Of a stretch of 64,000 bases of DNA, positions 2,564-9,504 are shown in pieces (position 1 is the stretch's first letter; each line of letters starts with the position of its first letter). A program made the position numbers and the translations under genes. The DNA is from Oscillospiraceae bacterium (lineage in GTDB: Bacteria > Bacillota > Clostridia > Christensenellales > Aristaeellaceae): assembly GCA_031255415.1 (NCBI GenBank), contig JAIRSO010000018.1, positions 1-64,000 on the forward strand, given 5' to 3'. The notes beneath the pieces are model-generated. The model saw nothing but the letters and a program-made list of their open reading frames with translations. It made no database searches and was not told the DNA's origin.

Positions 2564-3292
2564 TCAAAATGGCGGGAGCGTCGCTGGGCAATAGGGGGCG
2601 TGCATATTCAAATACGAAGTGTTGCCGTCGCACGAATACGTGAAGGCTGGGCATTCAAAGTTCGACGGGTAGCTCCATGACTCGGTGCCATTAATATAGC
2701 CGTCAATATTCCAGTCGACGGTCTGCAGATACCTGAACGTATGGTATATGGCTTGCCATAGGTAAGCGAGCTGTGAGCAGCCCTGATTGAAATCACTGCA
2801 GTTTCCCGGAGGGCCTTGCGGGCCTGGCGGTCCTTCACCCTGCGGGCCTTGCGGACCGCGCGGGCCTGTCGGACCTCTTGCGCCTCTCGGGCCTGGCGCT
2901 CCTACTTCACCCGTCGGGCCTGTCGGCCCGGGGCCGCCGATGGGTCCCGCTGGTCCGGTAGGCCCTTGCGGACCGCGCTGGCCTTTTGGCCCTGTGGGGC
3001 CTGTAGGTCCGACGAGCCCGGGCTGCCCGACCACCGTGCTTGCGGGGCCGGTTGGACCTCTGCCTCCAGTCGGGCCTGTTGGCCCAATAGGACCCTCGAG
3101 GCCGGGAGGCCCTTGCGGACCGCATCTATTCTCCCCTCTTTCGCCCGTTAAACCCCTTGGGCCGCGAGGACCTTGGCAGCCGCGCGCGCCTTCCGGCCCC
3201 GGCTGAGGCAGACAGTTGGGCGTATATAATATGTCGGGCGGCTTCGGGAGGATCAGATTATTATAGTTATTAACCATCTCTGTCAGGTTCAT
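2564..3292 (-). CDS. Collagen-like triple-helix repeat protein 3
   Basis: 242 aa, uninterrupted Gly-X-Y triplets ([19 protein letters not shown]...) then a Cys/aromatic C-terminal domain. Confidence 0.88.
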
Positions 3293-3334
3293 CGATTTCT
3301 CCCTCCCGGCGAGTCTGATGATTAAAGCCGACGC

Positions 3335-4036
3335 TTAGCATGGGCCGCTGCGGACGTAACGTGACCCGTTGGCGTCATATAGGTGTGTCGGGCAGACGAA
3401 CGCTGAAGGCCATTGCCATAGCGCGCCGGGTACCCCGTTGCAATCGGAATGGTTGGGAGTTAAAGCGTCGAGGAACTTGGCGTACCTGAATGAATGGTAT
3501 ACCATCTCCCAGAGCAGTGTCATGTCCGTGCATCCACCGTTGCAGCTCCCAACCGGGCCTGTGGGGCCTGTTGGGCCGGTGGTGTTTACAGGGCCGGCTG
3601 GGCCTTGCGGCCCTACGGGGCCCCTCGGCCCTGTAGGGCCTTGATCTCCGGCTGGGCCTGTCGGACCCATCATACCGGCGTCGCCGCTTATTCCCCGGCT
3701 TCCGGTTACGCCTATCGGCCCCTGCGGGCCTCTGGGGCCTGTCGGGCCTGCGGGGCCGCGCGGGCCTTGCGAACCCGCGCCGCCTACCGAGCCTGTCGGG
3801 CCTCTGTCGCCGCGCGGACCCGCGCATCCGCGCGGACCTCTGGGGCCGACGGGGCCTGTTATGCCTATGCCGGGCGGACCTTTATCGCCTAAAGGGCCTC
3901 TGGGACCCGTCGGGCCGCGGCGTCCGGTTTCCCCCACCGCGCCGCGCGGGCATGAACCGCACGCGCCGCATGTTTTCAGCGCGCAGCGGGGAACCTCGCC
4001 GTCTCTGTATAGGAACGGCCTGAATTCATCATACAT
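3335..4036 (-). CDS. Collagen-like triple-helix repeat protein 2
   Basis: 233 aa; N-term MYDEFRPFLYRDG; Gly-X-Y repeats; C-term LLWEMVYHSFRYAKFLD...WQWPSAFVCPTHLY. Confidence 0.88.
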   Translation of the reverse strand: MYDEFRPFLYRDGEVPRCALKTCGACGSCPRGAVGETGRRGPTGPRGPLGDKGPPGIGITGPVGPRGPRGCAGPRGDRGPTGSVGGAGSQGPRGPAGPTGPRGPQGPIGVTGSRGISGDAGMMGPTGPAGDQGPTGPRGPVGPQGPAGPVNTTGPTGPTGPVGSCNGGCTDMTLLWEMVYHSFRYAKFLDALTPNHSDCNGVPGALWQWPSAFVCPTHLYDANGSRYVRSGPC

Positions 4037-4056
4037 GCGGTCGATGCGCCCCCTTG

Positions 4057-4779
4057 CTACGGGTAGTCGTTACATGGCGGGGCTGACGGCGGCGTGGGAA
4101 TGCCCGCTCCGTTGTAGAACATTCCCGGACATCTGATTCCGTAATAACTTGAAGGCCAGAGCCATCTGGGGATGTCGGGAAAGAACGTAAGGTTGAGAAT
4201 CCTGGCGTACTTGAACAGATGGTAAGCGGCTTGCCATAGCGCTAGCAGTTGCTGGCAGGTGTTGTAGTTGCCGCATTCGCCTGGAGGGCCTGGAGGGCCG
4301 GGAAGGCTCGCCGGACCCGTAGGACCCGCCGGACCCGCAGGGCCTGGCAGCCCCGTGAGACCCGTGATGCCAGTCGGTCCTTTCGGGCCAGTCGGGCCGG
4401 TTGACCCGGCTATGCCTGGATCGCCTCTTTCGCCCGGCAGCCCCTGATCGCCCGTCGGGCCTGTCGGGCCTGTCGGGCCAGTTGGGCCAGTCGGGCCTCT
4501 GGGGCCTGTTGCGCCTGTCGGGCCTTCGGGGCCTGTTGGGCCTTTCGGGCCGTTGGGGCCTCTGGGTCCTGTCGCGCCGCGCGGGCCTGTGCAGCCTTGT
4601 CCGCGAGGCCCTGTATCACCCTTTAGCCCGCGCGGGCCGACCGTCCCCCGCCCTCCCGCGACTCCGTCGGGACCGTGCGGACACGGACATCCGGGCGCGC
4701 ACGGCGCGGCCTCATACGCCTTTATTAACCCGTCGCAGGGTATATTTGTCGATATGAACGGGCCTATATCGTCATACAT
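4057..4779 (-). CDS. Collagen-like triple-helix repeat protein 1
   Basis: 240 aa; N-term [15 protein letters not shown]; Gly-X-Y repeats ([13 protein letters not shown]); C-term [17 protein letters not shown]...[16 protein letters not shown]. Confidence 0.88.
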
Positions 4780-7195: not shown

Positions 7196-7396
7196 ATGGC
7201 AAGCACGTCGAACGTGAACGTTGCGGGCGCGAAAGCGGCTCTGGACAACATGAAGTTCGAAATCGCTCGCGAGTTGGGCATCAACCTGAAGCAGGGTTAC
7301 AATGGCGACCTGACTTCGCGCGAGAACGGCTATGTCGGTGGCTTTATGGTCAAACGCTTGATCGAACAGGCCGAACGGCAGATAGCCGGCAAGTAA
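7196..7396 (+). CDS. Alpha/beta-type small acid-soluble spore protein
   Basis: 66 aa; LDNMKFEIARELGINLKQGYNGDLTSRENGYVGGFMVKRLIEQAERQ. Confidence 0.96.
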   Translation: MASTSNVNVAGAKAALDNMKFEIARELGINLKQGYNGDLTSRENGYVGGFMVKRLIEQAERQIAGK

Positions 7397-7507: not shown

Positions 7508-7768
7508 ATGTTCAATCAGAACCAGGCGTCCACCCAGTACCCCAAGCCGGCGCAGGCCGCTTCTTCCTCAAGCTCTTCGGGAACCACGATGGTCCCCGAG
7601 GCCCGCGACGCTCTGAACAACATGAAGCATGAGATCGCCAGCGAGCTGGGGATCAACCTCAAGCAGGGTTACAATGGCGACCTGTCCAGCCGTCAGGCCG
7701 GTTATATCGGCGGCTACATGGTCAAGAGGCTCATCGAGCAGGCTGAGCGCAGCATCAGCGGTCAGTAA
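7508..7768 (+). CDS. Alpha/beta-type small acid-soluble spore protein
   Basis: 86 aa; LNNMKHEIASELGINLKQGYNGDLSSRQAGYIGGYMVKRLIEQAERS with a Ser-rich N-terminal extension. Confidence 0.96.
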   Translation: MFNQNQASTQYPKPAQAASSSSSSGTTMVPEARDALNNMKHEIASELGINLKQGYNGDLSSRQAGYIGGYMVKRLIEQAERSISGQ

Positions 7769-8152
7769 CACGCGGACTCGCGGACGGCGGTAATCACCCC
7801 TCCGCTTGACTCCGAAGTGAATGCTGGGATGGCGCGTCCGGGAAGCATGCCTCCGTCTGGATTATGGATTCAGTTGAATCCAACTCCATCCTCGGATGAT
7901 CATGAACCCTTCCCGTTCGGGTTATGCGCGCTACCGGGCTATGGACATGATCCAGCCCAGTCGGTATTGCGGGGCGTGCCCCTCAACCGAATCAGCGCCC
8001 AGCCTCGCGTCACAGCGGCGGACAGCGCTCCGGCGCGGCTGCCATCCCTCGCACTGTCCTTTTAATGGAAGGGCTACCGTTCCTTTCATACCAAAGGGGG
8101 ATCGACTGGATTTTTCGCCGGTCGGTTCCTCTTTCTTTACGCCTCGCCATTG

Positions 8153-8181
8153 TTGACAATAATCCCTTGCGTTGATACAAT
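8153..8181 (+). promoter_or_regulatory. SigmaA-type promoter TTGACA-17-TACAAT for rpn-like gene
   Basis: TTGACA 8153-8158, 17-nt spacer, TACAAT 8176-8181. Confidence 0.75.
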
Positions 8182-8203
8182 ACCCTTGGAAGGTGTGATC
8201 AAT

Positions 8204-9202
8204 GTGGCCGGCGATCTTCCCAGGCTGAACTACCACGACCACTTCCGCCCAGCTAACGACGTGGTCTTTTCCGTGATGTGCGGCCACAAGGAGATATTCT
8301 GCCCTTTGGTTAGCGCCGTTACCGGCCGGAACATAGTATTAAAAGAGGGGCCTCGCACGCAGGCCGAGATGCGCGAGGACGACGCGCTGCTGGCGGCTAT
8401 CCGCTTCGATTCGTTCGCGCGGGATACGGATGAGAAGCTCTACAGCGTGGATATCAATCGTTCATACAGGCAGGCGCGCGAGGTGAGCCGGACGGTTTAC
8501 TATGCGTGCCGCGCGATATCTACGCAGGACGTGTCCAGGATGCGGTATGAACTGCTCAATCCTGTCCATATATCCTTTATCTTTACCGACCATAAGGAAA
8601 AGCGCCCGGTGCGCCGCGTAAAGCTGTTGTTCACGGATACTCACGAGGTATACGACGATCTGATTGAGATAACGCTCGTATACGTGCCGACCGTCGTTAA
8701 AGAGGGAAACGGATGCGGGAGTCTCTATACTTTCGCTCGTTTTTACTCCATAGCTAGCCAGGCGGCGGCGGATAATTTCTGCAATGAGTTTGGACGCACG
8801 GATCTAGGCAAGGAGTTGATCAGGATGTATAACAACACCACCGCGAATGCCAACAATTTGTACAAAATCGAGAAGTCGAGCTACTTTACCGAAAGGCTCA
8901 ACGAGGCGCAGTTGGAGGAAGAACGGAAAGAGTATAGGCTCATTGGCATGCGTGAAGGCGAGCGTAAAGGCATGATCAAAGGCATGCGTGAAGGCGAACG
9001 CAAAGGCATGATTAAAGGCATGCGTGAAGGCATGCGTGAAGGCATGCGCGAGGGCGAGCGTAAAGCGCTTTTTGGTGTGGCGCAAAAGCTTCGTACCTCT
9101 GGCGCTCCGATGGAGATGATTACGGGATTAACAGGCCTAACTGAGGACGAGGTGAGGCGGCTGCGTCCCGATATCGAGCAAGGAGCTAATCAGGATGTAT
9201 AA
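8204..9202 (+). CDS. Rpn family recombination-promoting nuclease / PD-(D/E)XK nuclease family transposase-like protein
   Basis: NDVVFSVMCGHKEIFCPLVSAVTGRN...; IRFDSFARDTDEKLYSVDINR; LIEITLVYVP; charged C-terminal GMREGERKG repeats. GTG start with ggaaggtg SD downstream of the promoter. Confidence 0.82.
   Translation: MAGDLPRLNYHDHFRPANDVVFSVMCGHKEIFCPLVSAVTGRNIVLKEGPRTQAEMREDDALLAAIRFDSFARDTDEKLYSVDINRSYRQAREVSRTVYYACRAISTQDVSRMRYELLNPVHISFIFTDHKEKRPVRRVKLLFTDTHEVYDDLIEITLVYVPTVVKEGNGCGSLYTFARFYSIASQAAADNFCNEFGRTDLGKELIRMYNNTTANANNLYKIEKSSYFTERLNEAQLEEERKEYRLIGMREGERKGMIKGMREGERKGMIKGMREGMREGMREGERKALFGVAQKLRTSGAPMEMITGLTGLTEDEVRRLRPDIEQGANQDV
8825..9202 (+). other. Candidate internal in-frame translation start giving the 125-aa C-terminal tail (RpnS-like)
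   Basis: aaggag (8810-8815), 9 nt, ATG 8825, in frame with the parent gene; the same SD/spacing precedes the standalone copy. Confidence 0.45.
8943..9065 (+). repeat. Intragenic repeats encoding GMREGERKGMIK / GMREG units
   Basis: ggcatgcgtgaaggcgagcgtaaaggcatgatcaaa repeated, then ggcatgcgtgaa units; copy number differs in the downstream paralogue. Confidence 0.85.
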
Positions 9203-9470
9203 CAATACCACCGCGAACGCCAACAATTTGTATAAAATTGAGAAGTCGAGCTACTTTACCGAAAGGCTCAACGAGGCGCAGCTGGAGGAAGAAAGGAAAG
9301 AGTATAGGCTCATTGGCATGCGAGAAGGCATACGCGAGGGCATGCGTGAAGGCGAGCGTAAAGCGCTTTTTTGTGTGGCGCAAAAGCTTCTCGCTTCCGG
9401 CGCTTCGATGGAGTTAATCACGGGATTGACAGGCTTAACCGAGGACGAGGCACTGCAATCGCGGGGATGA
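9195..9470 (+). CDS. Standalone copy of the Rpn C-terminal tail domain (91 aa)
   Basis: MYNNTTANANNLYKIEKSSYFTERLNEAQLEEERKEYRLIGMREG identical to the parent tail; SD aaggag 9 nt upstream; start overlaps parent stop (ATGTATAA). Confidence 0.75.
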   Translation: MYNNTTANANNLYKIEKSSYFTERLNEAQLEEERKEYRLIGMREGIREGMREGERKALFCVAQKLLASGASMELITGLTGLTEDEALQSRG

Positions 9471-9504
9471 GCCGCCTCCCGGTACAATGCCTCATCCCCG
9501 CGAT
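9458..9504. terminator. 14-bp perfect stem hairpin between convergent genes
   Basis: atcgcggggatgag ... ctcatccccgcgat, overlapping the stop of the 9195..9470 ORF. Confidence 0.6.

Follow-up and report, generated by a model that had tools for sequence, protein, structure and literature searches.

A gene for a putative Rpn-family nuclease, whose C-terminal tail is encoded a second time directly behind it, lies in the 64,000-nucleotide stretch of DNA analysed here (the window). Comparison with loci of the same layout in Clostridia and enterobacteria gave no pair in which the tail of the nuclease and its free-standing copy have the same length, and nearly all of these length gaps are made up of whole four-residue repeats. 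The locus is best read as a unit of toxin, intragenic antitoxin and retained antitoxin of another specificity; we give this reading about an even chance, the role of the extra copy being inferred. Of the antitoxins encoded within their own toxin genes, those of Rpn loci are the best described, and the mismatch in repeat number offers a way to address why many of these loci carry a second, separate antitoxin gene.

According to the main text of a preprint (Zhong et al., 2023; PMC10327210), the Rpn genes of E. coli specify both RpnL and an antitoxin, RpnS, whose start codon is internal to the gene. RpnS also occurs as a separate gene, ypaA behind rpnE and a second copy behind rpnC, with independent origins, and the YpaA protein is made in K-12 (PMC10327210). 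The layout of nuclease, intragenic antitoxin and downstream copy is already published for rpnE-ypaA and rpnC. In E. coli, repeats of four residues make the dimerisation helix longer and determine specificity: RpnC_S carrying one additional 4-aa repeat fails to block RpnC_L, whereas the matched pair blocks (PMC10327210, Fig. 4D), a rule drawn from one E. coli protein (RpnC) and one added repeat. Fusion and loss of tails are reported as well; the length-mismatch pattern described below was not found in the main text of the preprint.

The nuclease gene of the window (8204..9202, plus strand; 332 aa) starts with GTG and stops with TAA at 9200-9202. An SD-like AAGGTGTGAT stands ahead of GTG 8204, and 22 nt 5' of this codon ends a promoter-like site (8153..8181, plus strand; TTGACA-17 nt-TACAAT, with TG ahead of the -10) that agrees with 11 of 12 consensus positions, a consensus match only; judged by these two signals, GTG 8204 is a sound start. 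Homology to Rpn and PD-(D/E)XK nucleases, proposed in an earlier note on this DNA, is carried by the orthologs and falls under the profile cut-offs in the window protein itself, which scored 21.5 bits against PF12784 (PDDEXK_2; cut-off 27.4) over residues 53-167 (8360..8704, plus strand) and 26.3 bits against TIGR01784 (cut-off 52.1). The PF12784 cut-off was passed by L056, the ortholog in a sister species (30.1 bits), and by L060, from another genus of the same family (29.2 bits), both 48% identical overall. The candidate active site, assigned by motif only, consists of D69 and D83-x-N85, conserved across the three sequences, with N at position 85 in the window nuclease and Q in both orthologs. 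When profiles were aligned with E. coli Rpn, the window subfamily (A3, three sequences) matched by its tail end alone (67%), and the sister subfamily A4 over 221 columns at 97%.

The tail gave further signs of kinship, as it matches positions 191-269 of TIGR01784, the Rpn C-terminus, and has variable 4-aa repeats in its first helix, as in Rpn, with a long helix predicted at 3-49. Its modelled structure (pLDDT 70) is a helix of ~47 residues followed by a small bundle; the best PDB match of this model in Foldseek was RpnA-S (7TH0; prob 0.99, TM 0.75 by target, E 0.19), which is also the sole PDB sequence match of the window tail (E 0.26), a result supportive rather than strong for an RpnA-S-like fold. 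Based on the ortholog PF12784 scores, the shared D69/D83-x-(N/Q)85, the TIGR01784 tail match and the 7TH0 fold and sequence match, the locus was filed as a predicted PD-(D/E)XK nuclease of the Rpn group (COG5464 / TIGR01784 / PF12784). Marginal PADLOC matches and sub-cut-off Pfam matches on the tail were dismissed as chance on helical sequence, and those to FliH and Yae1 as reflecting charged G-x-x-x-G repeats.

Inside the nuclease gene, a Shine-Dalgarno AAGGAG (8810..8815, plus strand; duplex -13.8 kcal/mol) stands 9 nt ahead of ATG 8825 and is the strongest of the gene, the sites of the 29 other in-frame starts all being weaker; from this ATG an RpnS-like tail of 125 aa (8825..9202, plus strand) would be translated. 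The same AAGGAG recurs at 9180..9185 (plus strand), again 9 nt ahead of an ATG, with homology to the parent beginning 1-2 nt upstream of it (GCAAGGAG), and opens the free-standing copy RpnS' (9195..9470, plus strand; 91 aa), whose ATG lies inside the parent stop (ATGTATAA) so that the two frames overlap by 8 nt. For this copy too, a long helix and a small bundle are predicted, and 7TH0 is the best PDB match. Two repeats, 8808-8993/9178-9363 (88%) and 9017-9152/9315-9450 (86%), form this duplication and are the strongest in the region, the spacing from parent to copy being 370 nt in the first and 298 nt in the second. The recurrence of the tail, the shared ribosome-binding site and spacing, the overlap with the parent stop and the internal start kept in the parent, all described in the earlier note, were seen again in the present analysis.

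Parent and copy are identical over the first 41 residues, before the repeats, and the first 43 codons hold 7 synonymous and 0 non-synonymous differences, in agreement with the earlier count. Between EYRLIG and ERKALF, the parent tail has 36 aa, or 9 units of the types MREG/ERKG/MIKG (8948..9055, plus strand), and the copy 12 aa, or 3 units (9318..9353, plus strand), six fewer than the parent; the length gap between them is exactly 72 nt, that is, six 4-aa repeats. Over 34 codons of the C-terminal bundle the two differ by 7 non-synonymous changes. A perfect inverted repeat of 14 bp (9458..9504, unstranded) overlaps the stop of the copy and is a possible terminator between the rpn unit and a convergent SDR gene beyond it; the terminator scan did not call it, and a strong T run is absent there.

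Elsewhere in the window, two adjacent small ORFs (7196-7396 and 7508-7768) directly upstream of the rpn locus resemble, by eye, small acid-soluble spore proteins of the alpha/beta type. Three adjacent genes on the minus strand (2564-4779) encode proteins that resemble collagen, with long G-P-T/G-x-y repeats and, at the end of each, a similar domain containing cysteine.

Across the full alignable tail, the window pair gave Sd=20 and Nd=10, a dN/dS of about 0.10, and the pooled value for 24 pairs was 0.33 (bootstrap 0.25-0.44). Protein-level (purifying) selection on both window copies is supported by these figures, which uphold what had been suggested for the copy from its first codons. In most pairs, including those of unrelated tail types, the stretch of DNA homologous between parent and copy starts at the Shine-Dalgarno site of the internal start, as in CGGAGGTGATCGGCATG, GGAGGTGATTGGCATG and AAGGAGTTGATCAGGATG, and in AAGGAGAGATTAATG of K-12 rpnE/ypaA. 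This site is the strongest in-frame one at most loci, the exceptions being L053, L054 and L117, with a median of -15.8 kcal/mol vs -3.5 for 319 other starts. Judged by where homology begins, by the strength of these sites and by the pooled dN/dS, the copies are genes and not random duplicates; the idea that the tail was copied out as a second gene is borne out, the tail-only ORF of the window being derived from its own parent. The least probable of the readings weighed here is that nuclease activity or replication slippage yields tandem tail duplicates that drift and are then lost, with the mismatch produced by a fast 12-bp minisatellite. Such debris would suit the fast change of repeat number also seen among unlinked tails, the broken state of some copies (the second copy of L047, and L051, where the copy has an in-frame stop), the missing copy at the ortholog L056 and the loss of the nuclease body at the sister site described below. 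However, a free copy beside a constrained parent predicts a dN/dS of at least about 0.5, above both the window value and the upper pooled limit, the copies start at a Shine-Dalgarno site and not at random points, and equal length, common in the unlinked control that follows, is absent in linked pairs.

The lengths of parent tail and copy were equal in 0 of 49 distinct pairs, a set curated by hand from mechanical alignments and made up of 30 pairs from Clostridia, 8 repeat combinations of E. coli rpnE/ypaA, 7 of rpnC and 4 pairs from Klebsiella/Photorhabdus; L089, L091, L101, L146, L263 and L293 were left out as partial or weak. Nearly all length gaps are multiples of four residues, to which rpnC adds a constant 2-aa offset, and the copy is the shorter of the two in 35 pairs and the longer in the other 14 (P 0.004 by sign test). 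Extra repeats number 0 vs 1 in rpnE/ypaA of K-12, and (5,1), (5,2), (1,2), (8,4), (1,4), (5,0) and (6,2) in other E. coli alleles. As a control, unlinked parent tails at 75-98.5% identity were of equal length in 72 of 370 comparisons (19%), with a mean equal-length share of 29% over 25 families. The chance of zero matches over 26 independent loci was P about 0.004, phylogenetic dependence being handled only by collapsing related loci. Since no linked pair is equal against 19% of the unlinked tails, the pairing avoids, or at least never keeps, matching length. An avoidance claim from E. coli rpnE on its own was rejected (shuffle P 0.47). Most of the Clostridial loci come from fragmented assemblies, and the 5' part of the parent is missing at L050 and L051; repeat collapse in metagenome assembly cannot explain the E. 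coli part of the pattern, because the E. coli genomes are complete assemblies.

A repeat match between antitoxin and toxin is built in for the internal tail, whereas the copy at 9195 differs from the toxin in repeat number. Given that in E. coli both the length of the dimerisation helix and specificity depend on these repeats (PMC10327210), RpnS' should fail to capture its own RpnL. As stated, the proposal that the copy serves this nuclease as an antitoxin module is not supported, since its repeat helix is six units shorter and a change of one unit abolishes neutralisation in E. coli (PMC10327210). The published repeat rule makes a spare antitoxin for the neighbour the weaker reading, and as copy length differs from that of the parent in the window and in all 49 pairs, the second copy probably does not act as a mere spare for the adjacent nuclease. 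It could still be argued that RpnS' raises the antitoxin dose for its own nuclease, length being irrelevant in this subfamily and binding being governed by the conserved N-terminal part together with the C-terminal bundle. The identity of both copies ahead of the repeats, the stop/start overlap, which suggests coupled translation, and the YpaA protein found in K-12 would fit this; we nevertheless consider it rather unlikely, at somewhat better than one chance in five, since one extra repeat is enough to abolish RpnC neutralisation (PMC10327210), some of the 49 pairs should match if matching were useful, and the C-terminal bundle differs too.

Within the window genus, a downstream copy follows 16 of 24 testable rpn genes (14 of 21, plus L010, plus L320 against L321). 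Two copies occur at L009, L068 and L050, and three at L269, in a genome elsewhere in the family; in the arrays behind one nuclease at L050 (G001:C67:1-987) and L269, repeat number differs per copy. Convincing cases number 7 among 102 loci of other Clostridia, a set that takes in the remainder of the family, and 4 among 77 loci of Enterobacterales; L066 was rejected as an Rpn gene. In E. coli rpnE alleles L150-L154 and others, an intact ypaA is labelled in RefSeq as a pseudogene or 'missing N-terminus', which hides antitoxin genes. No relative of the window protein, and none of the A4 subfamily, was found on viral contigs, and a copy followed none of the 18 distinct phage-borne parents of enterobacterial type. 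Many contigs start or end inside rpn genes or tails (C9, C25, C59, C75 and C97 of G000; C5, C17, C67 and C87 of G001), from which it appears that rpn tail arrays probably break assemblies and that true copy numbers are higher.

The window's own genome has copies at four unrelated tail types, and L056, the ortholog closest to the window gene, lacks one, which argues that downstream copies arise independently; L060 also lacks a copy, but has little downstream sequence. At the syntenic site of the sister genome G001 (G001:C89:14631-14759), window positions 7904-8342 align, to about codon 46 of the nuclease, and the rest of the nuclease and the tail copy are gone beside the SDR gene; across the same SDR gene lies a different rpn gene with its own tail copy (L255). 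Conservation of the tail-only ORF in close relatives, raised in the earlier note, was found only in part: it is absent at the orthologs of G003 and G016 and deleted at the G001 site, and independent copies follow about two thirds of the rpn genes of the genus.

In another reading the copy is a reservoir for recombination with the parent tail, through which repeat number and C-terminal bundle are exchanged and the specificity of the toxin changes, the copy's own protein being secondary. In the single-copy E. coli rpnE alleles L161 and L162 the nuclease ends in a C-terminus of the downstream type (DRDQ/LVLAATQLSEADLAANNH), which fusion would predict, and tail exchange likely happens; fusion and loss in the preprint (PMC10327210), copies that share the 5' part of the parent and not its 3' part (copy 2 of L009, copy 1 of L068) and the arrays of two to three copies point the same way. 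On the other hand, purifying selection and the retention of Shine-Dalgarno sites point to copies that function as proteins, a swap by deletion consumes the copy, and the E. coli change can be read either as fusion or as fresh duplication. A donor role is unlikely in our estimate, slightly less so than drifting debris.

In the favoured three-product reading, RpnL (8204-9202) would be a PD-(D/E)XK nuclease toxin, RpnS from ATG 8825 its intragenic antitoxin, with a helix length necessarily matched to RpnL, and RpnS' (9195-9470) a duplicated and separately translated antitoxin, most likely kept for its other specificity, toward an older or foreign Rpn variant. Continued protein-level selection on the copies suggests that they retain some target to neutralise, the simplest candidates being Rpn variants whose repeat number differs, former versions of the same gene among them. 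Additional antitoxin from a copy of equal length would blunt the toxin, and a mismatched copy would persist without that cost, so that only copies not silencing the resident toxin would remain. Several points count against this reading: the window Rpn family may tolerate a repeat mismatch, rapid slippage of the repeats is enough to make unequal lengths likely, recombination and not selection might remove copies of equal length, and orthologs without a copy exist (L056, and L060 with its short downstream sequence). More tentative, with perhaps one chance in three, is the general claim that copies are held to another repeat length since an additional copy of matching length would disable the defence, with the extra copies forming a layer of second-specificity immunity (or tail swapping) in Rpn systems of Firmicutes and Proteobacteria. 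The mismatch in the window genus, as in E. coli, turns the question to which toxin each copy blocks, and bears on how repeat-coded specificity could diversify under phage pressure without self-poisoning or a silenced defence.

Among known systems, the closest is rpnE-ypaA (rpnE_S') of K-12, where a tail-only gene likewise lies behind a nuclease gene with an internal start and has the same Shine-Dalgarno site, homology starts at that site and repeat numbers are unequal. It belongs to another subfamily and phylum, and differs in the size of the copied tail (61 residues vs 91 in the window), in the repeat difference (one vs six) and in the junction, a 12-nt gap in K-12 vs the 8-nt overlap of the window. 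E. coli rpnC/rpnC_S' is alike in that the same tail type was duplicated independently behind its own nuclease, with lengths unequal in 7/7 combinations seen, but rpnC_S' has a rebuilt N-terminus (MEIKTRRETRQ...) and lies ~70 nt past the parent stop. RpnA-S (7TH0) shares with the window tail a long first helix followed by a small helix bundle; it has 49 aa without inserted repeats, whereas in the window tail ~50 residues predicted as helix precede the bundle. In the orphan immunity genes and displaced tips of CDI/Rhs systems, a toxin gene is followed by extra specificity modules with a shared 5' part and a differing 3' part. Their proteins are unrelated to those of the window locus, and the comparison is one of working principle: the part that is copied is the toxin tip in CDI/Rhs and the antitoxin and dimerisation tail in the window locus.
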